64,000 bases of DNA from Diacronema lutheri (taxonomy: Eukaryota; Haptophyta; Pavlovophyceae; Pavlovales; Pavlovaceae). The stretch lies in NCBI GenBank assembly GCA_019448385.1, contig JAGTXO010000025.1, positions 372,001 through 436,000 of the forward strand, given 5' to 3'. Position 1 is the stretch's first letter, and the number at the start of each line of letters is the position of its first letter. Below, one piece after another: positions 9,360 through 64,000 of the stretch. The translations under genes were made by a program, and so were the position numbers. The notes below the pieces were generated by a model. The model had not been told where the DNA came from. It saw nothing but the letters and a program-made list of their open reading frames with translations, and did no database searches.

Positions 9360-9483
9360 CGTTGTTGCGAGCCACTCGTTTTGAGGGGCCCGGGCATGTG
9401 GGTGGGGAGGGGGACAGGCGACAGGTCAAGGCCGACATCGCTCGTGGAGGGGGACACAAAGTGGCGCGATCGTAACAGAAACG

Positions 9484-12076: not shown

Positions 12077-12118
<42 letters not shown>

Positions 12119-30031: not shown

Positions 30032-30064
<33 letters not shown>

Positions 30065-33013: not shown

Positions 33014-33070
<57 letters not shown>

Positions 33071-38100: not shown

Positions 38101-39767
38101 CCGGCGACACTTTGCTGCCGCCTGGGCCCGAGCCGCCCCCATCGCTCGCCGCGTCCGCCGCGTTGGAGTCAGCGCGCGCGTGCCCCGCACGCGCGCGCGT
38201 CACGCTGCGCAGCGGCGGCGGCTTGCTCGTCGCCGTGACGCCGCTCACCGGTAACTGGCTCTTGGAGCTCGAGGGCTTGGCACGCACGTCGACTGCCAGC
38301 GGCGTGGGCGCGGGCGCGGGTGCAGGCGCGGGCGGCGCGCCGTCGTCGGCGCGCGACGGCGCTGACACCGAGCTGCTCGCGCCGCTCCTCGCGGCCCTCG
38401 ACCGCGCCTCGGAGCTGACGGCACCGCTCGCACCGCCGGGCACAGCGCCCGGCCGTCCAACCGTCGCGCCTGTAACGGCTGCGGCGAATGCGGGATCCGC
38501 GGCGCGCGCCACAATGCTTGGGGCAATCATCAGCGAGATGACACAGCTCGAGCTGAAGCTCGCGCTGCGCCGCGTCGGTGCGCGGCTCTGCGCGCGCGGC
38601 CTCGCGCGGCTCGCCGCGCCCGCGCCACCTGCCGCACGCGTCGCGGCCGTGCGCGCGTGGCGCGAGCGGCGGAACGCGTCCGCGACGGGCGCATCGGCCA
38701 AGTTGAGCGCGGCGGCTTTGGTGGGCGCGCGCTCGGCGTTCGAGTTCGACGTGCTAAGCGCACCTGGCGCAACGTTCGCCAGTGCGTCGAGCGCGATCGC
38801 CTCCGCGTGCACCACGGCGATCGCGCTCGATGGCGCGCCTGCGCGCAGCGGCCTGCCGTCGCTCGAGCTCGAGCTGTGCGCCGGGTGGGCGGGCGGCGCG
38901 CGCGACGCGCGCGACGGTGCCACAAGTTGCGCGTCGGGTGTAACGGGCGAGCTCGCGCTGCTCGGCTTTGGTCGAAACGAGCGTGCGCCGCGCGTTTCCG
39001 TTTCACTCATCCTCGTAACGGCACGCACCGAGTCCGGCGCCGCGCCGGACGACGCCAGCGCGGGTGCTGGCGAGGGGCCCGTTGCGAAGGCGCACGCGCC
39101 GTGTCCGCGATCCCCAGCCATCTGCCTCTTCCGGCTGGCGCTGCCCGTGAGATGTGTCGCGCACGGCACAGCGGCTGAGTCGAGCGGACGCGATGCGCGC
39201 ATTCCGGCCGAGCCGGACATTCCTCCCGAGCCGGACGGCACTTGCTTTATCTGGCTGGGCGACGGCGGTGGAGAGTTGGTGGACGGCCAGCTGCAGCCGC
39301 ATCGGGATGACGAGGCGGGCCGCAAGCGCGCGCGCGACGGCGCAGTGCGCGCACTCGGCGGCGCGCGCGCGCGACACGAGCGCGACGCGGGATGCGAGTG
39401 GGGTGGGTGTGAGTGGGCCCAGTGGCTGCACGACACGCTGCGCGCGGCGTCGTGCGCGCTGCGCCTCGCTCGCGCCGAGGCGGAGCTCGTCGCGCACGGG
39501 GCGCAGATGCACACGCCGGACGAGCCGACGGACGGGCATGGCGGCGCGGCCGCGGCCATGCCCGCGGCGCGCGCGCTCGAGCGCGTGCGCTCGCTCCTGG
39601 GCGTGCAGGGCGCGCCGGATGCGCGCGTTGGTGGCGGTGGAGGTCCGGACGGAGCGGACGCTGGCGATGCCTCCGGCGAGGCGTCAGGTGCGCGCGTGCT
39701 TGTACTGTCGCGCGCGCCAAGGGTGCGCGCAGCGCATCGCATCGCCCCCCTGACTCCCGAGCCATGA
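35158..39767 (+). CDS. Probable Mediator subunit MED14 (RGR1-like)
   Basis: Four exons (35158-35309, 35394-35474, 35627-35762, 36057-39767) give 1,359 residues in one frame. Donors are GTGCGC or GTGCGT, acceptors GCAG; the exon 3 join is set by the good frame DDGVNPLRLHFPADG, and intron 3 (294 nt) contains a poly-C tract. The segment GLVVASLDGLYRVCLFPLGS followed by GWRVRHLELQL resembles the MED14 repeat in which a beta hairpin leads into WRLL-x-L. MED14 is the backbone of the Mediator complex in the nucleus. Much of the rest is Ala-rich and includes a PDA repeat. The assignment rests on weak similarity, length and layout; exons 1-2 are the least certain. It could be another large helical scaffold. 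Confidence 0.5.
36010..36031. repeat. 22-nt poly-C tract within an intron
   Basis: Lies 25 bp before the acceptor of intron 3 of the MED14-like gene and could serve as a pyrimidine tract. Confidence 0.9.
37116..37218 (+). repeat. Nine-base tandem repeat encoding Pro-Asp-Ala
   Basis: About eleven units of GCGCCGGAC (two variant units with GTA) keep the frame and encode (PDA)n with two PDV units. Confidence 0.9.
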
Positions 39768-39876
39768 CGCTGCACACTCAAACCTAGACTTCGGGCGCGA
39801 GTGTTCTTTCAAAAGGGGTCGAGGTCGCGCCCGGCCACAGGGGCGGGGCGGCCTTTGCGGGAACTCGCGGCGCGAG

Positions 39877-42800: not shown

Positions 42801-44004
42801 GCGGTGTGGATGGGACGCGGACGACCTGGGCGCTTTTGAGTTCAGGCACGCGCGCTGCGCCAATGTGGACGGCATGGCGGCAGTCGAGCAGCTGCCCGAC
42901 GGCTCGAGCGGGCGGAAGCGGCCGTGCCGGCGCGAGCTCTCCGCCGCGCGCACGCGAACGCGCGGCGACGACGCCATGCGCTCGACTTGTGCGCGCGCGC
43001 GCGAGGGCGCGACCCCACCAGCGCGGCGGGCGCGCGCGCGCGCGCGCGGCGGCGGAGCGGAGGAGGAGGAGGAGGCGACGATGGCAGTTGGCGAGCAGCA
43101 GGTGGTGGACGCGGCGGAGCACGTGGGGGCGACGGAAGGCGCGCGACCGCGCGGCCTGTTCGCGCACTTTGCCCACCGCCCGAACCGCGCGCCCCTCGCG
43201 CGGCTTGACGAACCAAACGGCGCACGGCGCGCCGCGGCGCGCGGCAAGGCCGGCGGCGCGGCGCGTTGTGCAGACGGTGCGCAGCACACTGGTGAGGGCG
43301 GCGACGGCGGCGGCGACCGCACGGGGGTGGCGCGCGTCGGGGAAGAGGGTGAGCCGAACGATGGCCGCGGCTCCTCGCACGATGGCGGCGATGCCTCGCC
43401 AGGGCTGCCATGCGGCGAGCAAAGCGCATCGCCGCAGCTGCTGCGCGAAAAGGCCGCGTCGCGGACAGCAGCAGGGCGCGCGCCCGAGCAGCGGCGGCCG
43501 ATGCGCCTCTTTTTAACATCGGGCGGAGGCGAAAAGCCGCCGTGCAGGGAAAGCAGCGCCGCGGTGCGAGGGCACGTGCCGCACGGCGCGGGGGTGCACC
43601 CGCTGCGGCGGCGAGGCGCCGAGCAGGGGGTGCACGCACGCAACGCGCCGCCCGTGCCACATGCGGCGAGCGCCGATCGCGCCGCGCGCGCGCACGGTGC
43701 GGTCGGCGTGGGCGTCGCTGCCGACGACGACGCCGCGCAGCCGCTGCGCGCGTGCAAGCAGGACCCAAGGCTCGTTCGGCGCGTATGCCAGCTTGGACGC
43801 GAGGGCCTGCCGCCGGCCGCCATCGACCGCCGGCTGAGCGCCGACGGCTTCAAGAATTCGAGCGGGCGGCCGTGGGCGGCCAAGAACGACGGGCGCGTCG
43901 TCGTGCGCATCTTGCTCAATCACGGCCTCGCCGTCAGCGGTTCGGATCCCAAAATCCGAGAGTACGCGCGCTCATACGCTGCCGTGCTGGAGGGCAGGGT
44001 GTAG
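39877..44004 (+). CDS. RecQ-family DNA helicase with N-terminal RanBP2 zinc finger
   Basis: Two exons (39877-41377, 41651-44004) give 1,284 residues. The intron (273 nt, donor GTGCGC) is in frame and stop-free, but removal restores the motif join HFTMPGAPDALYQEAGRAGRNG. A RanBP2-type zinc finger (WQCGMC..CDMC, C11/C14/C25/C28) is followed by superfamily 2 motifs: LPTGAGKS (K141), DEAH (about 240), TALTATAT, YHGQL, ATCAFGMGVD and QEAGRAGR, and by a RecQ-type zinc-binding Cys cluster (ADCCDVC). The enzyme unwinds DNA 3' to 5' in repair and recombination. An Asp/Arg-rich insert separates the two helicase lobes. The long C-terminal tail is low complexity but ends in a compact segment (about 1205-1284) like the HTH part of serine recombinases (GLPPAAIDRRLSADGFKNSS). 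Confidence 0.9.
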   Translation: MLRLKASDWQCGMCGYFNEDGDDLCDMCDAPIELDEQRLTQRAVAIAPDAASLHAGAGLAPAALADVAPCAQYDEIEEVALAREDALRYSRDDSFAWTAAVHVLNASAFGNMSFRGAQLPAIHAALDGRDCVLLLPTGAGKSLAYQLPALARPGMTLVIGPLVALACDQVAGLRARGIEARLLSSHQPAEEKAYTLALLDADPPPRLLYVTPERVSQSPAFLRTLARLAARGLLQRIAVDEAHCIAAYGHDFRPDYLRIGQLRERFADVPITALTATATHAVLGELMQRLRLRRPVVFRAPLDRPNIRFQVRPKTAGTLDEIAQLAQELCPLDSQRCMRAGARARHGAPDADADDPPRHDDQALCARIGGGCCCATARRARHAGTDADDDSDAKDARVGSDVEAEDDTSALRARCDDGLRARSVGVVYCLSCKEVETVADALVRRGVRASFYHGQLELDERQAAHEALRVGRVQLLVATCAFGMGVDLPTVSLVAHFTMPGARPPALLPRTRAPSARPSTADGRRRGAPPRQAELSAQLHLVTRCVTYRDARACAHRTPRSHLTRRTRVCGACASGLPCLGRRARPPRPIAGAPDALYQEAGRAGRNGQPAQHVLFFAYADKNRIEAMLRRGALARADSDAAGAECASALRRRLADLLTVTGYALDAAECRRVRLLRAFSQTPLARAPAARADCCDVCARDGDGPHPPRDARALAAHVLALLRALRGGRGAEAAGGLSVRYLAKLAAGSRGRDVLDAEHQKLPGYAAVAELGQAGAVRLVQAMVVARFLNERATPTAHGGVSTDVSAGPRASELLDGAQSRDHEPFLVCLPPLSAPARDGRAAGRPLPVVRRGASAHARGRASPRADEPQHERTPLAAKGSGWHVHASSVLLETWLQPAGAPGACARGVGAGARARAARSADAGGADARTGGADGRHDGGGGGSAADDDDDEAEAEALLCTLDCEGDRRLDPVRVRCGWDADDLGAFEFRHARCANVDGMAAVEQLPDGSSGRKRPCRRELSAARTRTRGDDAMRSTCARAREGATPPARRARARARGGGAEEEEEATMAVGEQQVVDAAEHVGATEGARPRGLFAHFAHRPNRAPLARLDEPNGARRAAARGKAGGAARCADGAQHTGEGGDGGGDRTGVARVGEEGEPNDGRGSSHDGGDASPGLPCGEQSASPQLLREKAASRTAAGRAPEQRRPMRLFLTSGGGEKPPCRESSAAVRGHVPHGAGVHPLRRRGAEQGVHARNAPPVPHAASADRAARAHGAVGVGVAADDDAAQPLRACKQDPRLVRRVCQLGREGLPPAAIDRRLSADGFKNSSGRPWAAKNDGRVVVRILLNHGLAVSGSDPKIREYARSYAAVLEGRV

Positions 44005-46412: not shown

Positions 46413-49400
46413 TTAAGAAAGCAGGGATTTGGGGTTGGGCCTCAGTTTCTTCGCTGTTTCACAAGCCTTCTCAGTGGGCAGCCACAGTTTCTTGTGTGCA
46501 ATTTCTAAAGGATGGTGAGGGGACAGCAAGGATAACGTCAGAGTAGCGGCCATGGCCTTCGCCAAGCCCCTGAGCGCCGCCGGTGGCGGCGGCGGCGGCG
46601 GCGCGGCGGCGGGCGGCGGCGCGACGGCGGGCGGCGGCGCGGCGGCGGGCGGCGGCGCGGCGGTGGGCGGCGGCGCGGCGGTGGGCGGCGGCGCGGCGGC
46701 GGGCGGCAGCGGCGGCGGCGCGGCGGCGACGGCAGCACCAGTCGGCTTGTCCGCCCACGCACCCGAGACGCTGTCCCAGGCCTTGCCCGGTGGCGCGCGC
46801 CCACGCGGCCGCGGGTGGCGGGCTCGAGCGGCGGGGGGCGGGCGGCCGGCGCGCCAGTCGAAGACAGGTGCAACCGTGGCGGCAGGCGCCGAGCGCAGCG
46901 CGTCGGTCACAGAGCGCGTGGTGCGCGCGGCGACCGTGGCGCGCATGGCGGGCGGGCGGTGAGCAGCGCCCGCCGGCGCGCCGGCGGGCGCGGCAGCCGG
47001 CGCGCCGGCGGGCGCGGCCGCCTCGAGCCCGGCGGAGGCGCCGCGCTTGCGCTTGCGCGTGCCGCCGCGCGTGCGCCTGCGCGCGCGCCCGCCGCGCGCC
47101 CGTTCGGCCTGCGCGTCGCCAGCCGCGTCGCCGGCCGCGTCGCCGCGCCGCACGTAGACGACCGCGAACGCCTCCTCGCCGGTCCCGTCGACGCCGCCGC
47201 GCGCGCGGCGCAGGACCGACCGCCACTGCAGCCGCCGCGCGCGGCCGGGCTCGCACGCAAACCAGCGCCCACCGCGCCTGACGACGGCCACAAAGTCGTC
47301 GTCGCGCCGCCCGCGCCGGCGCGTGCGCAGCAGCACGCACTGCACGTCGAGCCAGCCCTCGTGCCAGTCGGCCGTGCTGGGGGCGACGCGAATCGACTGC
47401 GGGAGCTCGACGCCAAAGCCGGCGAGGCGCACGATGTGCGCGACGATGACGCTCGAAATGGCGGGGGCGCTCGACGGGTCGCCCGCTGCAGCGAGCACCG
47501 CCCCGCCCCAGTGCTCACGCGTGACGCAATCCGCGTCCTCGACGTGCACGTGCGCCACGCTCGCGCCGAGCTGGTGCAGCAACGCGCAGATGTCGGCGTC
47601 GACCGTCCTCTCCTCCTCGGCCGCCTCGGCCGTGCCGCGGGCGGCGGCGTCGCCTGTCGGCTGCCCGAGGTACGCGATCGCCCGCTCGACGGCCGCGCGC
47701 TCCGCACGCGCTGCGCTGTCGATCGCCGCATTGCCGACGGGCGCGCGCAGCGCCGCGATCGCGTCTTGCAACGCCGTCGCGTCGCCCGTCGCCGCCGCCG
47801 CCGTCACCGCCGCCGCGCTCGCGGTGCCGTGCGCGACGGCGTGCAGCGCGGCGGCGCGCGCGGCGGGGATGCGCCCGTCCAGCGCGAGCACGAGCGGCGG
47901 CCCGGCCGGCGTCTGCTGCCGCCGGTGCCGCCGGCTCGCAGCCGGGTGGTCGGCGCGCGCGCGCTCGAGCCGCGCGCGCCGCTCGACGACGCGCGCCCAG
48001 AAGGCCTGCACCCTCGGCTGCGCGAATGCAAGCCAGCCGGCGCCGCGCGTCACGACGTGCACGACGATCCGGTCCTCGTGCCCGAGGTACTGCACGTAGA
48101 GCGCTTTGCTCACGCCGAGGACGTGCATGCCGAGCTGCAGCTGATCGCGGTGCGGCTGCGGCGGCCCGTCCTCGTGCGCCGTGGCGCCCGCCTTGGTGAG
48201 CGTCTTCACCTCGACGAGGACCTGCTCGTTGTTTTCGGGGAGGATGGCGAGCCCGTCCGGCGAGAAGGCGAACGGCGCGCTCTTGTCGTGCGGGTCCGCA
48301 CGCACCATCGGCAGGTTGCACACGACGGTGATGCCGTACGCGGCCGCCAGCTTGCGCAGCGCGACGGCCTCGCCGAGGATGCCCGCGGTCGTCGCCTTGG
48401 TCCGCACCTCGCGCCGCCGCCGGTGCACGTACTCGTCGGTGAGCGTCTCGTGCGCGACGCCGGCGTTGTCGTTCACGACGTCGCCAACCTTGCTGCCCGT
48501 GACCTCCTCCCATCGCTCGTCGTGCCAGCGCGGGCTGCGCTGCGCGGGCGCGCCCGCGCCGACGGCGTCGAGCACGCGGCGCAGCGCTGTGCCGTCGGGC
48601 GCAGCAGGCACGCGCGCGCGGTCCTGGGCCTCGCGAGCGTCGAGGACGCGGCCCGTAGTGGAATCTTGGGGTAGGTCGAGCTTGCTCGCCTCGCCGTAGC
48701 GGCTCTCCAGCTGGCGCGGTGCGTCGGCAGGGCCGCCGTCCGTGCGCGCACCCGACGCGCCCGCCAGTGCACGCGGCGCAGCGTCCGAGGCGCCCGCCGC
48801 GCCCGCGCCGCCGCCAATCGCGCCAGCGCACGCGCGCGCCGCGACCTGCGGACGGCCAGCCGCAGGGGCCTCGTCCGCTCGGCCGGCCGCTGCGTCGGCC
48901 GTCCGCTTGGCCGCCTCGCGCACGTCTCCGAGCGCGAGCGTGGCTGGCGCCGTCCAGCTCCCGTTGCGTTTGTCCCAACATTTGAGCAGCCCGCCAAGGA
49001 GGGGCGTGCCCGTCGGGCGGTCCTCGGGCACCTCCGCCAGGATCGCGTCGACGCGCAGCGCGGCCGCCACATCGCAAAACGCGCGCGCGGCGCGCGCCAT
49101 CCGCTCGGCGCGCGCGCCGCCGTCGTCCGCCGCGCGGCGGATGGCGTGGCTCACGTGCGCGACGCGGAGCGAGACGACGGCGTGCGCCGGCGCGCCGGCG
49201 CCCGTGCCGAGCGTGTGCCGCCGGATGGCCAGCTGCCCATCGCCCATGCGCGGCGGCAGCGACGCGCACGCCGCGACGGTCGTCGTGCCGGCCGCGCTGT
49301 CGCACAGCCAGCTCGCCTCGCCGCCGCCCGCAAACTCAAAGGTCGCGAAGCCCTCGCGGCCGAAAAGCGCGACGAAGTGGTCGAGCACCGCCTTGTTGAT

Positions 49401-52241
49401 CGCGCGCGCCGCCGGCCGCGTCGATGCGCCGCGGGCAGCGCCACCCGCCGCGCCGCGCGCATCGCTGCACGTCGCAGGGCAGGTGCAGCCGGACGCGCGC
49501 ACGCCGTCCGACCGCGTCCGCGGCAGCTCGAGCTCGCGCACCTTGGGGCAGAACCAGAGCGGGTTGGACGCCTCGAGGCACAGCACGACGAGCCGCCCGT
49601 CCGTGCCGGCCAGCGCGCGCGCGTCGCGCAGCAGCTCGACGGCGAGCTCGGACGTCGCCGCGTGCACCGCCGGCTCGCCCGTCGCGCGGTCGGGCGGGAA
49701 GAGGCCGCCGCCGACGAGCGGGCTGGGGCAGCGGCCGAGCATCACGAGCAGCGGCGGCGGCGGCGTCTGCGGCGCCTGCTGCCCGACCGCAGCCGCCGTC
49801 AGCCCGGCCAGGTCGGAGCTCGTGCGGAGGGCCTTGAGCGCGACGCGCGAGCCGGTGCCCGCCTGCTCGGAAAACGTGGCGAGCATGGCGCACGTGCTCG
49901 CCCTCGCGCCGCACTGCCAGCTGACGCGCGCGAGGAGGCCTTCCAGCGTGTCGTTTTCGCGCGGCCGCGTGACCGCGTCGAGCGCCGCCGGGCCGAGCTG
50001 GAGGCTGCCGGGCGTGACGCACAGCACCGCCTCGTGGTAGGCGCGCAGCAGCTCCCTCGGCAGCTGCTCGGCGGGCGTCGCCGCCTGCCCGCCCACCCAC
50101 CGTGCACCGTGGCCGCCGTCGCCCGCGCCCGCGAGCCGCACCGCCGGCCCGCCCGTGATCGCCGAGGTCGGCGGCGTGCCGAGCGCGTCGACGAGCGCGC
50201 GCACGGGCGCGACACGCCTGCGCGCAGCGTCCGCGCCGACGGCGAGCGCGGCGATCTGAGCGCCCTCCCATGCGCGCCCCCTCGCGTCGTCCCGCGCGGC
50301 CGCCGGCGCGGCGCCCGGCCGCGCGCCGTGCGGCACCGCGCACGCCGCCGCGACGACCTCCGCGCGCGCGCCGGCGGCGTCGGGCGCGTGCAGCTGCGCG
50401 AGCGCGCCAAAGAGCGCGGCGGCCGAGCGGTAGCGGCCGTGCGCCGCGACGAGCGCGTAGAGCACGCGCAGCGCGGCCACGCCCGCCTGGTCGGGCGCGT
50501 CGCCAGCGATTTGCTCGACCTCCCACGTGCGCGTGGGCGGCGGGCTGCCGTCGGCCGGGTCCGGACGCAGCGCCCACGCGCGCTCGACGATCGCGTTGAA
50601 CACGCCGTGCGCGGCGCCCTCGTCAAACTCGGCGGCGCCCGCCGCGTGCGCGCACCACCCGTGCACGCGCGACGTGGGCGCATCCACGGCGCGCTGCACG
50701 ACGAGCACCGCCGGCCGGTCGACGCAGCCGAGGCTCACCGCCGCGTGCTTGCCCTCGAGCAGCGCCGCCGCCGCAGCCTCGACCAAGGCGTCATCAGGCG
50801 CGTCGCCGACGACGACGGCACAGCCGTCGCCGTACTCGGCCTGCATCGCGGCGACGCACGACGCGACAAAGTCGCCGCCCGCGGCCGCCGCGTGTCGCGC
50901 CGCCAGCATCCGGCGCGCGATGGCAAGCCAGACGTACTCGGCCGGCGCGCGCGCGGCGCGCGCGCGAGGCGCGCCGGCCGCGCCGCGTGCGCCAGCGCGT
51001 GCGCCTCCAGCGGCCGCAACGGCCGAGGCGGCTGGAGCGGCGGTGAGCGTGCGCCGCGCGCGCTTCGCCGGCCGCGCGATGGGCGATGCACCCGCCATCG
51101 CACCGCCCGCAGCAGCCGGTGCGGCCGCCACAGCGCCCGCCGCAACGCCACTCGTCACGACGCCCGTGGCGGGCGGCGCGGCGGCGGACGTGGCCGCCTC
51201 GACGGGCGTCGCGCAACTACCGCCAGCGGTCGCGGACGCGCCCGGCGACGCGTCGGCGAGGAGGTGGCGCAGCACGCCGCGCGCGAGCGCGACTCGCACG
51301 GCGAGCGTCAGCGCGCGCAGGCGGTCGGAAGGCGAGGCGTCGCGCTCGGCGTCGGCGGACGTGGCGGCAGCAGGCGGGGCGGCGGGCGGCACGGCGGCGG
51401 GCTGGGCGGCCGCCGGCGCAACCTCGTCGGCCTTGGCCAGCCAGACGAGCCCGGCGACTGCGAGCACGACGCTGTACGCGCCGACATCGTCACCCGCAAC
51501 GCGCGCCAGCCGGGCGTGGGCGTCGGCCTCGGACACGGCGACGCGGAAGAGCACGTCGTCGCGGGCAGCTTGCTCGGCAAACTGACGCAGCTGCTTGGCC
51601 ATCGTCACGCCGGCGACGCACGCCTCGCCCGCCTCTGCCTCGACCTGCTCGTCCTGGCCGATGGCGGACGCGCCGGCCTCGGCGCCAGCGTCGAGTGTCC
51701 GGCGGCGCTCGAGGGCGAAGCCACGCACACAGACGCGCTGGAGGCCGCCGAGCGCGCCCGCCTTCTCGTGCAGCGCGCACGACAGCTCGACCACCGAGTC
51801 CACGCGCCTCGCGGCGGCGCCCCCCCGCTCGCCGCGCGTGGCCGCGCGCACGACGAACACCGTGAATTGCGCGCGCTTCGCCGCGCGCGCCGACGCGCAC
51901 GCGTGCTTCAGGAGCCGGCAAAGCGCGGGCCTTTGCGCCGCTGCGCCCCGCGTGCACAGCAGCAGTTGGCCGCGCTCGTCGCCCAGCTCCTGCTCGACGG
52001 CGGCCTCGAGCGCGTCGTCCGTCAAATCGCCGTGCTCCGTCGAGGCGAGCGCGCGCGCAGCCGCGAGCGCCAGCTCGCCTGCGCCCGCGCGCCGCCGGCG
52101 GCGCGCACCGGCGGGCGCGTGCGGCGCCGACGCGTGTGACGACGCCGCCGCGTCCGCGCGCGCACACGCGGCGCGCAACGCCTCACGCGCCGAGGCGGCC
52201 GCGCGCGCCCTGGGCGCGAGCTTCAAGAACGTGCGCGCGGC

Positions 52242-52316
<75 letters not shown>

Positions 52317-55300
52317 GGCCGGCGGCGGCGGTGGCGGCGGTGGCGGCGCGGCCACGGCGGCGGCAGCAGCGGCGGCGGCGGCGGTGGCGGCGGCGGCGGC
52401 GCCCAGCGCGGGCGGCGGCGGCGTGGCGGCGGCGGTGGCGGCGGCGGTGACGCCAGCGGCGGCCTTGGCGCCGCGCGTCTGCGGCGGCGTTTCGGCGCGA
52501 TCGGGGCTGCCCCCGCCACGCACCGCGCTCGTGACCGCGCAGACGCCGCCCGGCGCACGATCGCTGGCCGCGCCGGTCAGCGCGACGCGGAGGCGCTCGC
52601 CGACAGCGTACATGTCCGCCACGCTGAACGTGCGCGGCGCGGACGAGCAGCCCGCCGCGGCGAGCGCGTCGTTGAGCGCGCCCACTATCGCGAGGCCGCA
52701 CGTCGCGCCACGCTGCGCCGCCTCGTTGAGCAGCAGCGCGCGGCGCACGCGCGAAATGTCGAGACCCGCCGCGTGCAGCGTGGCAGTTATCGCCTTGGCG
52801 AGCATGAGCGCCTGCCTGCAGGGCGACGCGAGCGTGTCGACGAGCACCGCGTCGTAGCGATGCTCGCCCGCGCGCGCGACGCGCACAAGGCGCAACGCGG
52901 TGAAATGGCCGGAGGCGAGCTGCGCGCCGTCGTCACCGCCCGCGCCGCCGCGCTCGTCCGACGGGCTCCACACGCCGATGACAGCCTGCGTTGTCGCCTC
53001 GCTGCGCAGGCGGTGCAGCAGCGCGGCGCGCTCGGCGTCGTCCTGAAACACCGCGGGTTGCGCGGCGAGCGGCACGTGGCAGACATGCCCGCCGCCGGCC
53101 TGCCCGTGCACGCGCAGCACGACCTCGCAGCACGCGTCGACGGTTGAGGCGAGCATGTCGCCGCTGGCGATGCGCTCCACCTCTGCCTGCGGGAGGCCGG
53201 CGCTCGCGGCGGCGGCGGCCAGCCGGCGCGCAGCCGCGTCGCCCGCCCACGCAAGCAGCGCCGAGTTGGCGGGTTGGAGGGGAAGCTCAAGGGCGGCTGG
53301 TTCGGTGGCGGTAGCCTCGTTGGCAACGGGCACGTTGGCGGTGCGCGCGTTGGCGGCGGGCGCGGCGGCGATGGCTGGTGGGGCGGAAGACGCGCCCGCG
53401 GCGGCAGGCGCGGACGCGGCAGCGGCAGCGGCTAGTGGGGCGGGGAAAACGCCGTCGGTGGCAGGCGCGGAGGCGAATGCAGGAGCAACTAGTGGGGCGG
53501 GAAAATCGGCGGCAGGCGCGAAGGCGGATGCAGCAGCGGCTAGTGCGGCGGGGAAAACACCGTCGGCGGCAGGCGCGAAGGCGGATGCAGGAGCGCCCAG
53601 CGGGGCGCAGAAAACACCGTCGGCGGCAGGCGCGAAGGCGACAGCAGCAGCGGCCAGTGGAGCGGAGGCGCAGGGCCACGCGCGCGCCAGCCGTGCAAGC
53701 CCAAGCCGCGCGCGAGCGACGCACGCGCCGATGGCCGAGGCGGCGGCGCAGGCCACGACGTGGCCTGGCACCGGTGTGGCCAGCCGCTCGCGGGTGTGCA
53801 CGTCGAGCCGCGCCCCACGCCAAGAGCGGCGGCGCGCTGAACGGAGGCGCGCGACCCCGATCGATCCGCCCGCGCACGCGCGCGCCGGCTCAGTGTGGCC
53901 AACGCGCGCCGCTATGCAAGGCGCGCGCGCGATAACGGCGGCTGTCGGCCGTGGCGTGCGCGTGGCGGCGCCGCGGCGACGGGCGCGGCACACGAGCCGC
54001 TCGGGCGCGCCGCCGCCGCGCGGCACGATGTCGAGCAGCACGGTCACGCCGCGCGCGCGCGCGACCGCCGTGCACGCGAGCCGCACGGGCAGCGGCGGCC
54101 CGTCCGGGCGCGCGAGCGCCGCCACCTCGGCGTCGGTGAGGCTGTGCAGCTCGCGGCGCGCGCGCGCGAACGCGGCGATGTCCGCGCGCAGCTCCGCGTC
54201 CGTGCCGAGCGCGGCACGCGCGTGCACGGGGAGCGACGCGCGCAGCGCGTGGAGCACGCCGCCGCGCGCGCCGCGCGGCGCCGGCGCGCGCTCGCGCTCA
54301 GCGCGCGCGGCGCGCGTGAGCTCGCGCACCGCGCGCGCGAGATTGCGCCGCGCGGCCGCGACGGGAGGGCTAGGTGCGCGCGCGCGCCGGTTGTAGCGCG
54401 GCCGCGCCGAGTCGAGGGGCGGCGGACGCGGTGCGTACGCCGCGGCGCGGCCCGCGCGCCAAAAGGCCGGCGGCGGGCGCAGCTCCGTCGCGTCGACCGC
54501 GGCCGCGAGCGCGCCGAGCGCGGCGTCGCTGTCGCCCGCCGCGTCGGCCGCGTCGACGAGCACGAAGAGCGCGCCGAGCGCGCGCGACGCGGCCGCCTGC
54601 GCGGCGGTGGGGCGGGCGCAGGCAGCGACGCATGCGGCCGCCATGCCGCGCGCCGCGGCGAACGCCGGTGACGTGACGGCCGCGCCGATGGCAACGGCGG
54701 CGGCGGCGACGGTGGAGGCGGCAGCGCCGGCGATGGAGGTGGCAGCGGCGGCGGCGCTTGCCATCGCGCGGCGCGCGAGACGCGAGGCGCCACCGACCGC
54801 CGCCGCCGCAGCGCGCGCTGCGCGCGCGCCGGTGGCGCGCATCGTCGCCGCGCCAGGCGCCGCCGCGCCGACGCCGCCGGCGCCCGCGCCGTCGCCGCTC
54901 TCGGCCGTGCAGGGCTCCGATGGCGAACCCGGCGTGCGCTGGCGCGTGATGCGCGCGCCGAGGCGCGCGCTCCGCGCCGCGCGGCCGGCGACGTCGAGGA
55001 AGCGCCGTGCGCGCGCCGCGCGCAGGCCACGCGCGCGCGGCGGCGCACCGACAGGCGCCGAGCGCCGCGGCGCGCACGCCGGCGCGTCGCTGTCGGGTTG
55101 CGCAGCGCGCGCGCGGGAACTCGGCGCGGCGTGTGCGGGCGGCGGGCGCGCGCCCGCGCGGCGCAGAGGCGCGAGGCGCCGGCCGCAGACGAGGCGTGTG
55201 CGCAACCAGGACGGCGAGGGCCGCAGGGCGCCGTCGACGTCGCGCATCGGCGGGCCGCGAGCCCGCCGCGCAGCCGTGCGGCGCGCGCGAGGCGCTCGGC

Positions 55301-58300
55301 GGCGCGCGCGCCGCACGGCGCGCGCGGCGGCGCGCACGCCAGCGACGGCTGCGGCCACGCCGCGCGCCAACACGGCCGCGGCGTGCGCCATCGCACCGAG
55401 CACGGCGCGTGGCGCGCCGAGCAAGCGCAGCAAGCGCGACGCCGTCGCGCGCGCCGGCGCACCGTGTGCAGGGGCCTCGCCAGCGCCAGCACCGACGCCG
55501 CCATCGCCGCAGCCGCAGGTGGCGTCGCCGCCGCCGCAGGCGTCGCGACGGACGCCGCCGCCGCCGAAACAACCGCCGCACACGTCGCCGCCGACGTTGC
55601 CACCCCAGCCGCCGTTGCGTGCGCAGGTGGCTGCGGCGCGTGCGTGCGGGAGGCGTGCCGTGCGGCGCGCATCACACGGGCTGCGCGACGCGAGCGACGC
55701 CGCCGGGGTCCCCGCTGCGCCAGGCGCGCCGTGCGCGCCAGCCTCGCCGGCCTCGCCGGCGCGCGGTCGCGCGCTCGCCTCGACGTGGCCGCCTCCGCCG
55801 CCATCGCCGCCGTCGAACCGGGCGGCGGAGGGCTGCCGCTCGAACCGCTCGTCGGCGTCGGCCGCCACCGCCGCCTCGCGCTCCGCCGCCGCGGCGGCCG
55901 CACGGCGCGCGTGGCGGAGCGCGCGGCCGCCGTCCGCTGCGCGGCGTGGCGGCGCGGGCGCGGGCTTCGGCGCGCGCGGCCCCTCGGCGCGCTCGCGGAG
56001 CACGGCGAGCGGCGTGCCCGTGGCGACGCTCGTGCAGACGCGCCGCAAGGCGGCGCTTACGCACGCGTGGACGACGCGCGCCGTCCGCTTGTCGGCGGCG
56101 CGCGCGGCGCGGCGCGCGGCCTTGGCGGCGGCCTTTTTGGCGCGCCTCTGCTCCGCCTGCTCCGACAGCGCGCGCGCCTGGCGCTCGGCTGCGAGCGCGT
56201 CCTCGGGCGAAACGGTCGGCCTCGGCGGCCGCGCGCGCGCGCTGCGACGCTGCGCGCTGCGGCGGTCGGACGGCGGCTGCCGCGGCGGCGAGGACGGCGA
56301 GCGCGAGCTCGGCGTGGGCGACCAATCGCCGCTGACGGTTGCGAGCGGCGCAAACGGGTTGTCGTCCCCGCGACCCGCGGCGTGCGACAGTGCACGCGGC
56401 GTCGGGCGCCGGCCGACCGCTGGCGGGCCCCACTCGGACGGCGGCTCCGAGGGCGAGCGCGCCGTCGGCGCCGCGCGTTGCGCGGCCGGCGGCGCCTCCC
56501 GGTCCAGCGCCGCCTGCTCTCTCGCCGCGGCCTGCTCGTCACCCTCCGGCACGCCACGCGGCGCGAGCACCGCGGTGGCGCAGCGCGTCGCGTTGAGCAA
56601 CGCCGCCTCCATCTGCCGCACGCTGGCCTTGGCGCACGCCACACCCTCTCTCGCCCGGCGCTGCGCCTCGTGCGCGCGGCGCACATCCGCGTCGGCATCT
56701 TCGCGCATGCCAAAGTGCGCCTGTTGCAGCCGCAGGTCCGCAGGGCGCCCCTGCGCGCGAGGGGCACGGGCGCGGCGGCGCGCAGGTGACGGAGCTGGCG
56801 CGCCGTTCTGCGCTGCGCGCACGCCAATCGACGGGCGCGCGCGCGGCGGGGCGCGCGCGCGCGCGCGCGCGCGCTGCCTACCCAGCCGCCGGCCGGCTCG
56901 CGCGAGCGCGCCAGCTGCTCCGCCGCCTCGGCGTCGAGCACGCGCTGCTGCGCCTCCTCCTCGCCCAGTGCAGCGAGGTGCAGCCGGCGGGCTGCCTTGC
57001 GGCAGTTGCCCTCCGCCTTGCCCACGGCCTTGCGCGCCGCGTCGACGGGGTCGTCGTTGGCTCTGGCGCGCCTGCGCTTGCCCTTGTCGGCGGGCGGCGG
57101 CTTGGCGCGCTGCAGCGTGCCGAGCGCGTCGTCGGCTCCGCGCGCGGCCGCCCGCGGGCGGCGGGCCCCAAAAAGCGCACCGGTCGCCGTGCGCGCCGCG
57201 CAAGCAACGACCAGCGCTGACATGCCGGCGAAGACCGCACCGCCCAGCGCCACGGTTGCCACGATGCGCAGCGTCCCGTGCGCAAGCTGCGCTGCCTCCG
57301 CCGCTTTGGCGGCCTCGCGCGCGCGCGCATCGGCGGCTCTCATCTCGTGCAGCAGCCCGGCCGCGCCGCTCGCGCCGTCGCGGCCGCGCGCGAGCTCGCA
57401 CAGCACCGCCGCCGCGCGCCGCGTGGGCTCGCGCGCGAGCAGCTGCGCGCCGCCGTCGGGGCGCAGCTTCTCAACGAACTCGACAAACGTCGCGTCGCGC
57501 CAGAGGGACATGCGGAAGGCCCTGTGCACCGCCCCCTCCTGCTCGCGCATCCGCCGTGCCGCCCGCCTGCCGTCGCGCGCGTGCGCGTGCGCGGCCGCGT
57601 CGAATCCCGCGACGCCGCGCTGCGCGTCGCGCGCGGCCGACGACGGCGCCGCCGCGCTGCCCGCCAAGGGCGCCGCAGCGGCGACGCGCGCGTGCGGAGC
57701 GACGGGATCGCCGGCGGCCGGCGGCTCGGCGCGCTGCGGCGTGCCGTTTGCTCCGCGCGCGGCCGTCCCGGGGGAGATGGCCGCGATGGCGCCGCCAGCC
57801 GCGCCGCGCGCCAGCCACGCGCATAGGCTGCCGACGAGCTCGCCGAGACCCCCGACGGTCGCCGCGGCGGCGAGTGCGCCGGGCTTGCCGGCCGACAGCG
57901 GCTCGCGAGCGTCGTCGTCGCAGCCGCCGGCACCCGTCTTGGCGAGTGCGTCGCGCTCGCCCTCGACGCCCGCCACGACCGCCGCCCCTCCGTCGTCCGC
58001 CGCGCCGGCCGCGCGCGCGGCCGGGCGCAGAGGAGGCGTGCCGGTGCAGCCGTCGCCGCTCGTCTTCGCCGTTTCCTCCACTTTGGTCACTTCGTCGCCA
58101 CCTGCGCCATCTCCGACGCCGGGGCCCTTGGTCACGCTTGCCGCCATGCGCGCCGTGCCCGCCGGCCAGCCCGCCGACTGCTCGAGCGCGGCGGCGAGCG
58201 GCGCGACGCGCGTCGACTCGGGCGCGCTCTCGTCATCGGGCTCGAGCGCGTTGTGCAGGCGCGCGAGCGCGCGCTCGACGGCCGCGGCGCCACTGCCGGG

Positions 58301-60556
58301 GGCGCGGCTCGCCGCGCGCACCGCGCGCCGCCAGGCCGGCGCGAACATGAGCGCCGGCTCGAGCGCCGCGAGCGCGCGCGCCTCGCGCGCGTCGCTCGCG
58401 CCGAGGCGCGGCGGCACGCGCGCGGCTCCGCGCGGCGCGGTGCCTCGGAAGCGTGGGCTCAGCGTGTAGGCGAGGTGCTGCGGCACGCCGCGCGCCTCCG
58501 CGCGCGCGCGTCCGTCCTCGACCTCGCGCCGCGCCTTCGCGATCGCCGGCGTGGCGCGCGCGAGCCAGTCGGGGTCGGCGGGCAGGTGGATCACGACGAG
58601 AATCGGCGCCCAGTCCAGCCGCGGGTTCTTGTGACGGTCGGGCACGACCCACACGAGCAGCACCGTGCCCTCCGCGCCGCACGCCGCCTCGTAGATCCTG
58701 GGCTGCGAGCGCCAATCGGGCCTGACGCGCAGCGCCCGCGCGTGGTCGATGGCGGCGGCGCGGTCGCCATTGAAGTGAACCGTCGTCACCTCGCCGATGA
58801 CGGACCGGCCGGACCGCCAGCAGAACACCGCGTCCGCCGACCCGCCGGCGATGGCCGCGAGCGATTCGGGCGCGGCGAGCCGCGGCAAGCCCTCGAAGGC
58901 GGCAAAGTCCTCGTGCGCATTGTACACGCCGCCCCAGCCGTCGTGCGCGTACGCGCGCGCGGCCGCTCGTACCGCGCGCGGCTGGTTCTCCACGCCCGAC
59001 GTCATGTGCCATGTCGTCCCCGCGAAGCCGGGCTCGCCCAGCTCGGCCCGCACGACGGTACCGTACCCCGCGCCCTGCGTCGGGGCGGCGAGGTGGTGCA
59101 TGCCCGCGCCGGTCACGCCCTCCGTGCGCTGCCGCGTGACGATCGTGCCCGTCGCGTGCGCGAAAAGCGTGTCGACCACGGCGGGCGCGCGCCCGCTGTT
59201 CGCCCGTAGCCGCGCCCTGCCCGCTTTTAGCTGCTCGGGGTCCTTGGCGTCGTACACGCGCGCGTCCGCGTCGCCCTCATCAGGCGCAGTGTAGACGCAG
59301 CGGCGTTCGAGCGGCGCCGAGCCACCGCCGTCCGCCGCCGCCGGCGAGGTTGGCGCCGCGCCCGCCGCCACCGCGCTCGTCGCCGCCGTGCCCGTCGCCA
59401 CCGCCGCAGCCGCCGCGCCCGCGGGGTCGTCGTCCCCGTCCTCCGCGCCCTCCCCGTCGTCAGCGGTGGTGGCGTCGCCATCGTCCCCGTCGCCCTCGCC
59501 CCCGCCGAGGCTGCTGAATGGTCGGGGCCCCCACGCCGAGGCGGCGCGCCGCTGCGGCGCACGCGGCGGTGGCGCTCGCGACGGCGGCCTTGGCGCCGCC
59601 GCGCCGCGCGGCCTGGCCGCCGTCGACAGCGCGCGGCCTGCAGCGCCCGTGAGCGCGTCGAGCGCGGCCGTGCGTGCGATGCGGTCGTCGGGCGCGCGCA
59701 GCGCCGCCTCGACGGCCTGCAGCAGCCCGTCGGGCGCGGATCCGCCGACACTGGCATCGCACGCCTCGGCGAGCCGCGCGGCCTCGGCGAGCCGCGCGGC
59801 CTCGCGGGTGAACGGGCCGAAGCGCCTGGCGCGGTCGCCGAGCAGAGCGCCGATGGCGGCGCGGAGCGTGCGCGCGCGGGTCTCCTCGTACGCGGCCGTC
59901 GTGAGGCGCGCGAGGCGCGCGTCCAAAGCCTTCTTGATGTCGACAAGGACACTCGCGCGGCGGCCGTAGAGCGTCGATGCGCTCGCCACGACCTCGGCCG
60001 CGACTGTTGCCGCGGCGAAGCAACACGCGGCCCCACTCTGCGGGGGCGCCTTGAAGGCATCGATGGGCGGCGCTGTTCTGCCGATGCGCTGCGCAAGCTT
60101 CTTGATGAGCACGCCGGCCGCCGTGGCGTACGCCGATTCGCCGTTGCCCAAGGTGCGCGAATCGGCGAGCAGGGCGAGCGCGGCGCCGGGCGGCGCGCCG
60201 CGCTGCGCGGGCGGCGCGAGGAGCAGGTACGCCGCCGTCCAGTGCACGAGGCCGCTGGACGCGCGGAGGCAGAGCGGTAGCACGACCACGAGCACCTGCC
60301 CAAACCGGTCCGCATCCGCGCATGCTTTGCGCAGGTTGCGCAGCGCCACCTTGAGCGCATGCTGCGAGCACCCCGTGTCGCCCACCCTAACCCTGCTCGT
60401 GCCGAAATCCGCGTAACGCAGCAGGGCGATGAGGCAAGTGGATGGGACCACGTGGGGGTGGGTATCTCCCGGCGACAGAATGGTGCTGAGGGCCAGCGAG
60501 AAACTGTCCGAGCCGCCCCGCCCGCCGGGCAAAGCGTCCTTCACGGAGTCCTCCAT
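46413..60556 (-). CDS. Giant multidomain protein with C48-like proteases and YqaJ nuclease
   Basis: Exons 60556-56882 and 56807-46413 with a 74-nt intron (TGG|GTAGGC..GCGCAG|AAC, phase 0, containing a (GC)12 tract) give 4,689 residues. Seen: an N-terminal C48 (Ulp1-like) module (H105-W, D132, Q173, C179); a nuclease-like block (about 500-640) with D575 and E589 but Thr591 where Lys is expected; a membrane-like helix (about 1096-1121); charged and Ala-rich spans; a second C48-like module (H2526-F, D2549, Q2590, C2595-G); two degenerate ones (nt 51500-51900; nt 50460-50760, H3246, with Ala at the Cys site); and a YqaJ/lambda-exonuclease nuclease (E4038, D4076, E4091-V-K4093, then QLQLGMHVLG). 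The tail is (AAPPP)n plus an AT-rich-coded end. I do not recognise the whole. It could be two genes, a virus- or transposon-derived polyprotein, or a host factor. Confidence 0.6.
46571..46735 (-). repeat. 15-base tandem repeat encoding Ala-Ala-Pro-Pro-Pro
   Basis: About eight imperfect units of GGCGGCGGCGCGGCG type, in frame with the giant gene. Confidence 0.85.
52238..52314 (-). repeat. (GGC)n tract encoding polyalanine
   Basis: A trinucleotide run of about 25 units inside the giant gene, followed by GGC/GGT and GGCGGCGGC stretches that encode polyproline and more alanine up to about 52450. Confidence 0.9.
53410..53660 (-). repeat. Tandem repeat of about 20-24 codons
   Basis: Units of the form SAFAPAADGVFPAPLAAAA recur about five times in the giant protein just before its second C48-like module. 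Confidence 0.8.
56851..56874. repeat. (GC)12 dinucleotide tract
   Basis: Falls inside the inferred intron of the giant gene, exactly where the reading frame changes. Confidence 0.95.
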
Positions 60557-61075
60557 CTGCAGACTGTGGGCACGTCAGTGTCCGGATGGCGGCCCGGATG
60601 ATACTTGGGAGAATTTACATGATGCCCTGGAGAATGCCCCGCTCTCCCACAACCAGGACCCGCCAGCGCGCCGAGCCTACTCGTTTGCCCGCGCCGCCTC
60701 TCTTTGCGCGCCCGAGCGCGGCCTCCGAGCGCGGCCAACGTCCTCCGGGGGCGTGCATCGTGGCTGCTCGGAGGGGCTGCGACGCGGCGAAAGCTCGCTG
60801 CGCGGCCGCAACGTGAGCGCGCGCGCGTGGCCGCGCGCCGGCCTGCGCTGCTCTGCACGGCCGCGCGCCGGCCTGCGCAGCCTCGTCGCGCAGCGTGAGC
60901 GCGAGCGCGCGCGAGGTGAGCTCGGCGGATGGGTGCGCGGCGGCGTTGGCGGCGGGTGCGGCGGCAGGCTGGGCGGCGGGTTTGGACGGAGAGTGTCGGG
61001 GAAGAACGGGGCGCATCCTGGCTGGGAGTTGGACGGCGCCCACCACGCGCTGGCGGATCCTGGTTGCCACCACCA

Positions 61076-61094
61076 CCCCCCCCCCCCCCCCCCC
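61076..61094. repeat. 19-nt poly-C tract
   Basis: Uninterrupted C run followed by GGAGACGAGGAC, a word that recurs near the G tract at about 63524. Confidence 0.9.
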
Positions 61095-62462
61095 GGAGAC
61101 GAGGACCAGGGGCATGGCCGACTCGCTGCGCCGCACAGCGCGCGGCGCGCGGCATGCTGCGCGACCTCAAGCACATCCAGCCGCGCTCCGCCCACGCAAC
61201 GCGCGCAATGCCGCGTTGCACTGCAGGTGTGCACGTGCGGCTCTCACGCGCACTGTGTTGCACGAACGGCATCACGCCACCGAGCTGCGTCCGGACCACG
61301 CGCCGCGCGCAGGCGACCACACAGGGGCGCGCCGCGCCGCGCGTGCGCGCCCTCGCAACCGTTGCAGCACGCTCTGCCTTGCACTGCGCCGAGCCGCCGC
61401 GCGCTGTGCGCGTGCATGCAGGGCGCACGCGTGCGACGAAGCGCGCGCGCGGCGAGGCGCGCGGGCGGCTCGCTGCGCGGGCGGCAACGCGCCCAGCTGC
61501 GCCCAGGCCAGGCGCGCGCCCGCGAGTGCCACCGGGACGCACTGCCCCCGCCGGGGTCGCCGCGCGCTCTGTGTGTGCGCTCGCGCGCTGCGAGCGCGGC
61601 GGAACGTTCGTGCATGGCGCGAAGAGCGCGGCACCCGAAGACGGCTGCCCCGAGCCCGCGCCGGGTGGCAGCGAGCGGCGGCACCTCCTCGGCGAGCCCG
61701 CCCCGCGCCTTCCCCTCCACGTGGCGTTTTGAGGCAGACGGACACGCGCCCACACTGCGACTGGGCACGCTGCTCGAGGCAGACACGCACCCAACGCGCG
61801 CGCACCACGCGCCCGCGTCGGCGGGCCGGTGTGAACGAGCGAGAGCTCGGTGTCGCCAACGGGGGCACGGGCGCGACTTCGGTCCGCCTCTCGACGGACG
61901 CAGGCGACGCTGCCGGGAACTTCCCCGACGCCTGCACATCCAGGGCTTCGAGGTACAGAGCTGGGCAACAGTGCCGCTCGTCACCGATGAGGCGGCCAAG
62001 CTCGCTATCCTTGCTGCCCTCGGCTCCACCAAACAGCCGGGCGACCCAACGGTTCGTGATCGCCTGGCCGCCAGGTGCGAACCGCGCCCGTGCAAGCGCT
62101 TCACCCGCATTCTCCGCCCCGCTGCGGACGTCCGCCTGCCGGCCGCGAACACGGCCGGTGCGCGTTGCCGCCTGGCCCAACACGAAAACCCGCCCGCCCC
62201 CGAGGCCGCAGGTCCTACCTGCCCAAGCGCAGCCCAACGGCACGCAGACAGCCCGCCTTGGCAACCGACTCGTGCGCGAGCGCTCCGCCCTCCACAAGAG
62301 CCTGCCCCACGCCACCGCCGACGCGGAGCCAGCGCAGCCGACGCCCCTCCGCGACGCTCGCGCCGCAAGGCGCAAGGGCCCCGGCGAGACGGCGTCAACC
62401 AAGCCCGCCGCTGGCACAGCGCCGGCACCCGGAGCCCACCCCAAGCCCCCGCGCACGCCTCG

Positions 62463-62491
62463 CCCCCCCCCCCCCCCCCCCCCCCCCCCCC
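62463..62491. repeat. 29-nt poly-C tract
   Basis: Uninterrupted C run. Confidence 0.95.
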
Positions 62492-62639
62492 GATCGGCGG
62501 ACCGATTGCGTTTTGGTGCGCCAGGCTCAATGCGCCATCGCAGTGGCGGGCCCGCAGACGCAGACGCTGACATGCCCAACGCTGGGCACTGAGGCCGCAG
62601 GCCGGCCCTCCTGGACCTGGCGGGCGAGCTGCCCGCGCA

Positions 62640-63300
62640 GCGGCCACGCGAGCCTCGCACTGACCGTGGCGGTCGCTGCCACCGTGATAGCTGCGGGTGC
62701 GGCGGCCTTGGCCCCAACCCCATCATCCGTCTTCATCCCCGCCCTGCTCGCGCTCGCGGCCTACGTCGGCAATCCCTGCACCGGGATCCGCCCCGCGAAG
62801 TCCACACAAGACTTATCCGTGCTGCACGCCAGCCGCGCGCGCCGACGCGCGCCGCTCCCACACGCTCACCTCCGTTTCCGCGGGCGGCCCAACGCCCCCC
62901 CCCCCCCCCCCCCCCTCCCCCCCGGCAGGCGGCCATCGAGCCGCATTAGCACACCCGCCCGGGGCCTCCAGCCGCACCCGCAGCGGCTCGGCGCCTTGAA
63001 TCCTCCCGTCCCCCGGGGTGAGGCCTTCAACCCGGGCCCAGCGCGCTCCGACTGCCTCACGCGCGCCAGCGCCAACCTCGGCGGCATGGTAGACCCCGAG
63101 CGAAAAGCCGCACTTCTCGCCGTCCTCGTCAGGCGCAAGTACGTTATCCTGCTCCTACTGCCGACGCGGCTCCCGCGCGCGCGGACTACTACGCCGGGCA
63201 GATCGCCGCAGACGCACGTGAGTGCACACGTGCGGACAAGGCGCACACGCTCGACGTCCAGTTAGCGCACGTGCACGTGCGCGCCACTGGTCACATTTGA
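62640..63300 (+). mobile_element. Decayed LINE-like (non-LTR) retrotransposon fragment
   Basis: A hydrophobic stretch (LALTVAVAATVIAAGAAALA) precedes RGEAFNPGP (about 63017-63040), then ANLGGMVDPERKAALLAVLV and RRKYVILLL, which looks like the start of an AP-endonuclease domain of LINEs (NPGP and then first strand, helix, second strand). In another frame a segment DYYAGQIAADARECTRADKA ends at a stop at 63298-63300, as if a frameshift and deletion had removed the catalytic core. No reverse transcriptase is visible in the window. The NPGP word lacks the Asp and Glu of a true 2A peptide. Similarity is by eye. Confidence 0.4.
62895..62915. repeat. 21-nt poly-C tract
   Basis: Inside the LINE-like fragment's open frame, where it would encode polyproline. 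Confidence 0.9.
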
Positions 63301-63468
63301 GCGTCCGTGCTCGCCCACAGCGTCGCCATCCACAAGATGCGCGCTGGAGCCATCCAAGCAGGGCTCTGCCTGCTCGGCTTCCGCAAGGCAATTTGGGCCG
63401 CGGACAGCGGACAGCGGACGGCGTGCGCGTGCGAGGTGCGAAAGGAGGAAGAAGGTAGGGAGAGTTGT

Positions 63469-63516
<48 letters not shown>

Positions 63517-64000
63517 CGGCCGCCGGAGACGAGGACGCACTCACCGCTGTTGGCAATGCGCGCGTCACGGAGACAACTTGGCGGGCTTCGCACGCAGCTG
63601 GGCCGATCGCCGCCGTAGAGATGTCTGCAGCCGTCTCCGCGATGCCGATCGTCGCATCTGTTGGCACCGCTGCCATCTGCCGCACCCGCGGCCAGGCTGC
63701 CGGCAAGGTCGGCGCGTCGGGCTCCGAGCTCGGCCACGCAGGCGATGCGGCCGACGGCGGTGACGCTGAGCCCAGCGCCGGGTCCAACGGCTCCACGTCG
63801 AGCCGGCTGTGAACGAGCATGCTCGCACCACTTGCCCACGCCAGCGCGTCGGACTCAGGCACGTTGTAGATCTGCGCGGGCAACGCGCGTGCGTGCGGCA
63901 GGCGCGCGCGCGAGCTTTCAGGCCACGCGCGCGTGCCGCGCGGGAGGACGGGGCGGTCGCGGCTGCGCTCGACCGCCGGTCGCGGCACCGAGCGACCGTG
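63301..64000. other. Right-edge region, unresolved
   Basis: Open frames run on both strands (for example minus strand 63988-63155 through a Pro run from the G tract; plus strand to a stop near 63810). Composition from 63530 to 63900 is fairly natural on either strand, so a partial gene or more of the retroelement may continue past the window. No domain recognised. Confidence 0.3.
63483..63511. repeat. 29-nt poly-G tract after a (GT)n run
   Basis: A short (TG)n run (about 63467-63482) passes directly into an uninterrupted G run. Confidence 0.95.

Follow-up and report, generated by a model that had tools for sequence, protein, structure and literature searches.

A young, high-copy mobile DNA element of about 31 kb in the alga Diacronema lutheri carries a giant protein frame and, directly after it, a Fanzor RuvC domain

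Helitrons carry a PIF1-type helicase. Fanzor1 is reported in algal Helitron2 elements that have hairpins at both ends, and Helitron2 insertions have no target site duplication (TSD) if they end exactly at the 5' consensus and otherwise have variable TSDs of 7-19 bp (PMC3627910). Helentrons can carry OTU proteases (PMC6431247). The listed hosts of Fanzor1 go with named transposases (PMC10711439), whereas the algal Fanzor1 elements CRe-1 to CRe-3 have no transposase and are taken as non-autonomous Helitrons (PMC3627910). One proposal is that cutting by Fanzor may aid elements of this sort in making new copies by way of repair (PMC10432273).

The element described here is a mobile DNA element of ~31 kb of the pavlovophyte alga D. 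lutheri, and it is a further form of a known kind, the large Fanzor-carrying mobile elements; a description of it was not found in titles and abstract openings of the literature, mostly outside the subscription journals. It resembles Helitron2 elements and Helentrons in that no terminal inverted repeats (TIRs) were seen in it, and in its mostly missing TSD and its palindromes near both ends, as well as a PIF1-type helicase, cysteine-protease-like parts and a carried Fanzor (PMC3627910, PMC6431247). It differs from them in having no recognisable Rep, a length of 31 kb, a frameshifted helicase, and a giant protein with a putative RecE-type nuclease and a chromodomain. Its ends are CTATATA...CTATAC and not the TC...CTRR of Helitrons, and its target is also different, with T directly before the element in 12 of 27 left flanks. 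With Fanzor-carrying transposons it shares the TnpB/Fanzor RuvC and zinc-finger motifs adjoining the 3' end, but none of the transposases named for Fanzor1 hosts was seen in it, as in CRe-1 to CRe-3. Cryptons and IS607-type elements are similar in the absence of TIR and TSD and in a short direct terminal similarity, while no tyrosine or serine recombinase was found in the element frames scanned. Polintons and Polinton-like viruses cover its size range (15-40 kb; PMC6431247) and have protist hosts, but PolB, capsid and packaging ATPase were absent from the frames scanned, and no TIR or TSD was seen. Replitrons likewise have short direct terminal repeats without TIRs; however, they are 0.9-4 kb long and have an HUH enzyme and 2-8-bp TSDs (PMC10741241), none of which applies to the element. 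The transposase of the KDZ group (Zisupton/Kyakuja/Dileera) gave no Pfam match in the element ORFs scanned.

The window, which is the whole stretch of 64,000 nucleotides analysed (C32:372001-436000; genome searched, 43,492,796 bases in 103 contigs), contains two overlapping minus-strand open frames, 46416-57470 (3,685 codons) and 56060-60574 (1,505 codons). The long frames of the window exceed chance: the longest frame was 3,622 codons, as compared to a mean of 1,113 and a maximum of 1,939 in 200 second-order Markov copies of 46603-60574. The GC content was in the order third > first > second codon position in 16 of 17 600-nt windows from 56.8 to 46.6 kb, and the 420-nt windows that cover 60,582 to 58,182, in the N-terminal part, gave the same signal; the frame was read as coding because of this order. 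The N-terminal part of the giant frame extends from the ATG at 60556 to a GC tract (56875..60556, minus strand), and its C-terminal part within the window, supported by the ORF, the Markov test and codon-position GC, is 46603..56834 (minus strand). It includes an Ala/Pro-rich linker of GCG repeats (52237..52489) and a tandem repeat with a 57/108-bp period (53399..53665), neither with an assigned strand. The earlier note had joined the frames into a single 4,689-residue protein. This did not hold, since one frame gives way to the other within a (GC)n tract and the codons in 46413-46602 are non-element DNA. A long frame does exist; however, what it represents is a truncated copy of a high-copy mobile element of ~31 kb and not a host gene of 4,689 residues.

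The (GC)n tract (56835..56874, no strand assigned) varies in length among copies and breaks the frame in the window. Over the first ~7.9 kb of the gene, the window and a copy on contig C48 differed by 4 substitutions and one change in GC-tract length in 7,897 aligned bases, and the C48 copy reads straight through the tract where the window frame breaks. An intron at 56.7-57.0 kb was thus rejected, the break being a difference between copies in the length of the GC-dinucleotide repeat. The N-terminal piece lay inside a frame of 3,752-6,136 codons at 9 of the 129 scored places, and therefore long unbroken frames exist; one copy other than that of the window is a single unbroken frame of 5,746 codons. 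At the remaining places the frame was mostly about 1,345 codons, and assembly error in the GC tract may be the source of the split frames.

The part of the element within the window is 46603..64000 (minus strand), and the copy continues to C32:444282 (72282 on the window scale). On the upstream side, all 30 loci compared (L032-L061) were colinear with the window. On the other side, 28 of 29 loci (L003-L031) ran on past 46603 with another sequence that they have in common, the exception, L004, ending earlier. The element in the window stops at ~46,603, and therefore the last 62 codons and the stop of the called ORF (46413..46602, minus strand) are flanking DNA. The truncation point (46602..46603) lies directly after a GCCGCC-ACC-GGCGGC hairpin and GCTC, a hairpin recognised by eye; the repeat there is rich in GC, and hairpins are common in such sequence. 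The window copy lacks the last ~5.3 kb of the 3' side, which in the copy on contig C1 (L062) holds about 1,065 further codons, including a chromodomain, followed by a Fanzor RuvC domain that is in a different frame after the giant frame with no long gap in the coding signal. A second 3'-truncated copy, at C9 near 757.0 kb, matches L062 only from base 2109 on and therefore also lacks the Fanzor end.

Adjoining the element in the window is a DEAD helicase of the RecQ type (39754-44001, plus strand), probably a host gene, whose RecQ zinc-binding and RQC matches were just under the cut-off. Elsewhere in the window, two gene sets in opposite orientation (9385-19359, plus; 23434-29865, minus) both carry SKN1/KRE6 and 1,3-beta-glucan synthase (FKS1-type) domains, and 4263-5732 (plus strand) encodes a C2H2 zinc-finger protein. 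Runs of C or G of 29 to 65 bases were observed at 2061-2125 (imperfect), 30034-30062, 33015-33068, 62463-62491 and 63483-63511. The GC content of the window is similar to that of the genome (73.25%; PMC8379373).

Among the readings offered by the earlier note, that of a new selfish element was borne out, since the ends are exact and the dispersed copies, which are nearly identical, number well over 100; that of a domesticated one found no support, and a self-cutting polyprotein is a hypothetical third. All copy counts are lower bounds. A query from the YqaJ stretch, an off-frame translation that marks copies and not the protein, found at least 141 places in the genome (236 first-look candidates), the N-terminal gene piece at least 129 (193 candidates), and a third gene piece at least 150 (226 candidates); every scored place matched, with 97-100% identity. 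Relative to the window, 30 loci had 0-4 substitutions each in ~2.35 kb of N-terminal sequence, and 27 loci had 18-30 each in ~3.4 kb of C-terminal sequence, many of the latter in common. As judged from neighbouring end coordinates, copies are 31.00-31.08 kb long, and shorter versions of 26.3-26.5 kb and 21.6 kb exist. When the truncated loci L004 and L016 were left out, the changes among copies were 39 nonsynonymous, 22 synonymous and 1 stop in the C-terminal part and 7 nonsynonymous and 5 synonymous in the N-terminal part, which is close to the neutral expectation and without sign of selection.

The YqaJ exonuclease-like domain proposed in the earlier note was upheld. The E, SPDG (D), EVK (ExK) and Q motifs are present at 47976..48551 (minus strand), and the best support came from a PHROGs RecE-like exonuclease match (E 2.5e-17). 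In the window copy, the NCBIfam lambda-exonuclease family (4.6e-7, 30.1 bits; cut-off 68) was under the cut-off and Pfam YqaJ (5.3e-4, 20.7 bits; cut-off 22) just under it; in a copy on contig C71, Pfam YqaJ reached 28.2 bits and exceeded it. A phage virion-protein family of PHROGs also matched the region (4.5e-9). Among phage proteins, the closest (28% identity over 66%, 2e-5) go under the labels hypothetical, tape-measure, virion or tail-fibre protein, and the phage names are therefore not uniformly exonuclease. These profiles support a RecE/YqaJ-type nuclease in the giant protein as a prediction from sequence. A possible second, decayed PD-(D/E)XK nuclease (GVENQPRAVRAAARAY ... SADAVF ... 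IGEVTT; 58756..59056, minus strand) and a possible decayed USP-like stretch (DDFVAVVRRGGRWFACE ... AFAVVYVRR; 47140..47360, minus strand) were seen by eye; the former had no Pfam and no convincing PHROGs support, and the latter no Pfam support.

The repeated C48-like proteases of the earlier note fared less well. Two stretches with the His/Asp/Gln/Cys pattern do exist, namely HW...DS...PPQSGAACC (60020..60244, minus strand) and HF...DT...QRGATCG (52695..52907, minus strand), but their identity as C48 found no Pfam C48 match at E<=10, so that the label is a putative one, drawn from motifs. Shuffling gave an expectation of 0.005 matches to the pattern, which was written post hoc, against the two found. 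A whole-genome search with PF02902 gave 8 scored candidates, none at a known element copy, and AlphaFold models made without homologues had a mean pLDDT of 41.9 and 42.7 for the two modules. Several further, decayed C48-like stretches were seen by eye; among all the protease-like stretches, the two named above keep His/Asp/Gln/Cys. In a search of PDB sequences, which returned nothing firm, the best hits were FtsK (E 0.13) for the second stretch, taken as chance, and Cas12f1 (E 0.4) for the Fanzor.

The earlier note had seen no further motif of a transposase, polymerase or capsid. This holds for the frames in the window, and the remainder of the element contributes a helicase, a deubiquitinase, a chromodomain and a Fanzor. 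Upstream of the giant frame and on the same strand, the window's own copy (upstream stretch L063) carries a UCH/USP gene and a PIF1 helicase. The end of the USP-type deubiquitinase gene lies at 63921..64000 (minus strand) of an ORF at 63921-65414 on the window scale; it matched the UCH profile PF00443 over the cut-off (7.7e-8, L063:2-1414), and both the Cys and His boxes are present. The PIF1 helicase (PF05970, 4e-24; Pif1_2B, 5.3e-13) was found by Pfam in three alternating frames at L063:2100-4914 (minus strand). About four changes of frame interrupt it, introns would have no evident space there, and it therefore may not work; the stretch bearing it is 99-100% identical in 16 copies, and a dead gene, frameshifting or a shared assembly error may account for it. 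An 872-bp inverted repeat (L063:5411-6282; ~90-91% identity between strands) lies beyond the helicase gene on the way to the 5' end of the element; it was present in all 16 scored copies and could be an origin or a regulatory structure. A small plus-strand coding signal was also observed near 70.6-71.1 kb on the window scale.

At the 3' side, in the C1 copy, the chromodomain matched the Chromo profile (2e-12) and the Fanzor RuvC domain matched Cas12f1-like_TNB (PF07282) over the cut-off (3.7e-6), with the motifs ADPN, EPYTSMHCS, CPAC and RDYNAARN (RuvC and zinc finger); NCBIfam TnpB (0.022) was far under its cut-off. Approximately 113 of 150 scored Cas12f1-like_TNB places carry the score of the element (~31.0-31.5 bits, by eye); the ~37 that remain differ from it, being uncertain or other Fanzors. 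Another locus with a Fanzor (L132, C9:377000-385500) has a frame of 1,681 codons, and 12 other places have its score of 43.9 bits; it was rejected as a further copy and belongs to another element, the similarity being confined to the Fanzor part. No transposase, polymerase or capsid domain was found in the open frames of the element scanned with Pfam, and Rfam gave no match in the window, L062 or L063.

The ends of the element were defined by comparing copies. All 16 scored copies matched L063 on the 5' side, 13 of them up to L063:8281-8293 and the other three up to 8273, 8187 and 8179; on the 3' side, all 40 scored places matched L062 from base 1, 2 or 4. The element starts with CTATATA[C/G/T]GG, except that the copy C9b starts with TTATATACGG, and its terminal 3' sequence is GACCATCTATAC. 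A palindrome, GTACGACCCGGGTCGTAC, begins at base 48 of the 5' end (16 of 29 5' ends), and another, GGGGCGCGATCGTGCCCC, lies 28 nt before the 3' end (19 of 32 3' ends); the 13 5' ends and 13 3' ends without one are fetched stretches too short to contain the whole palindrome. When the terminal 90 bases were folded to minimum energy, the 3' palindrome formed with RNA parameters but not with DNA parameters. No TIRs were seen at the ends. Junction ends were paired by nearness and orientation, a pair on C69 being left out for want of a 5' end at the expected place and a pair at C8:156094 having no 3' flank at a contig end. No TSD was found in 20 of the 21 pairs, which shared 0-2 bases, the chance level also seen in shuffled pairs; the remaining pair, C9b, has a 12-bp duplication. 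C9b is the copy at C9:2907.8-2938.8 kb (L094, L095), and its target also contains CTATATACGG.

The base 3' of the element was G in 20 of 26 flanks, and the flanks are AT-enriched, the GC content being 0.59 for left and 0.52 for right flanks as compared to 0.73 for the genome. By eye, 4 of 27 left junctions fall on, or close to, the end of a repeat of the L066 type, a short high-copy repeat (L066:170-269; 472 first-look candidates, 40 scored). These four insertions in one repeat family are at three different offsets with no evident common core, and in an empty-site comparison the shared part of the repeat beside L066 ended 4 bases beyond the insertion point. An element end is found no more than ~70 bp from at least 14 of the 206 contig ends, eleven of which were chosen because of this nearness; the repeat probably breaks the assembly there. 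No telomere repeat was found in the little sequence (~0-62 bases) beyond the element at the 11 chosen contig ends, and a telomere-bound element is without support, internal copies being abundant.

Based on these results, we tentatively favour, at a probability of roughly 45%, a young DNA element that spreads in rolling-circle style, with Helitron2/Helentron-like ends and assistance from its Fanzor. The fit to a Helitron2 type is drawn from the palindromes near both ends, the helicase, the 3'-truncated copies and the carried Fanzor, and an ordinary DDE element is disfavoured because no TIR was seen and there is no TSD. One strand would be copied, and the nicking Rep enzyme would be either unrecognisable or supplied in trans. 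A guide RNA arising at the element's 3' end might direct the Fanzor to cut empty sites, so that repair would copy the element in, and the exonuclease and helicase would help this repair copying. The protease-like parts may act on SUMO/ubiquitin marks or on the giant protein itself, which the chromodomain may tether to chromatin. Against rolling-circle spread count an offset 7-mer in common in the C43 junction pair, a weak match of 9 of 10 bases (by eye) to asymmetric terminal inverted repeats, and, at C8:74203, the absence past the 3' end of ATAT, the usual end of the neighbouring repeat. A canonical Helitron was rejected: a genome-wide search with PF14214 (Helitron_like_N) found one place, C63:35738-36019, where there is no known element copy, although a very divergent Rep is possible, and HUH-like strings in the element frames were unconvincing. 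Since no Rep was found at known copies and the terminal bases differ, the element would work like a Helitron and is not called one here.

The short direct terminal similarity CTATA(TA)C, with the repeats CTATATAC and CTATAC, would also suit an element of the Crypton or IS607 sort, with a tyrosine or serine recombinase, whose circle recombines with the target at a CTATA-C core. The missing TIRs, the 20 of 21 pairs without TSD and the frequent G at +1 agree with this, and Fanzors are found with Cryptons and in IS607-type elements (PMC10711439); we nevertheless regard it as unlikely, as the Pfam-scanned ORFs contain no recombinase domain, no convincing motif was seen, a string in the giant frame that resembles a tyrosine recombinase being judged not meaningful, and the insertions into one repeat family have no evident common core. 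It is decidedly unlikely that some other element of the genome moves this one in trans as a giant non-autonomous passenger, in the manner of CRe-1 to CRe-3: the PIF1 gene is frameshifted within a stretch common to near-identical copies, the giant frame is split at most of the 129 scored places, and the Helitron_like_N place at C63 is a possible helper element, but some copies keep frames of at least 5,700 codons. The Fanzor, the RecE/YqaJ exonuclease and the helicase are the recognisable DNA-acting activities, and no transposase of a known class was seen in the scanned frames; an RNA-guided copy-and-paste in a eukaryote, in which breaks by a Fanzor read from the giant protein or beside it are resected by the exonuclease and filled in by helicase-driven copying, with a tether and SUMO/ubiquitin-type proteases supplied by the giant protein, has a slim chance of being correct. 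It leaves the exact ends at unrelated target sites unexplained and needs a PIF1 that is frameshifted, and for a protein that is divergent and rich in GC the lack of a match says little. Algal viruses carry YqaJ genes. The size of the element and the occurrence of Fanzors in large dsDNA viruses (PMC3627910) would likewise fit an endogenised Polinton-like virus or giant-virus fragment. This origin is very improbable, given that no capsid, polymerase or packaging domain was found in the Pfam-scanned ORFs; close-match scans of viral contigs confirmed no relative, though distant ones would escape them. As for an assembly artefact or a segmental duplication of a host gene, the contig ends near element ends speak for it, but internal copies have different flanks and the same exact ends on both sides, and it is scarcely credible. 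Rolling-circle-style spread thus stays the reading that we prefer.

At full length, 129 copies would amount to ~4.0 Mb, or 9% of the 43.5-Mb genome, an estimate that takes no account of the shorter copies. The genome paper implies a smaller share for LTRs, about 3.3 Mb (32.7% of the 22.9% that is repetitive; PMC8379373), and its excerpted main text has no word starting with 'transpos'. A nuclease of the RNA-guided type, a predicted RecE-type exonuclease, protease parts of the ubiquitin type and a chromodomain come together in one mobile unit. The element is so young that excision, copying and guide RNAs may be caught in a culturable alga, and what Fanzors do for their elements thereby becomes testable.
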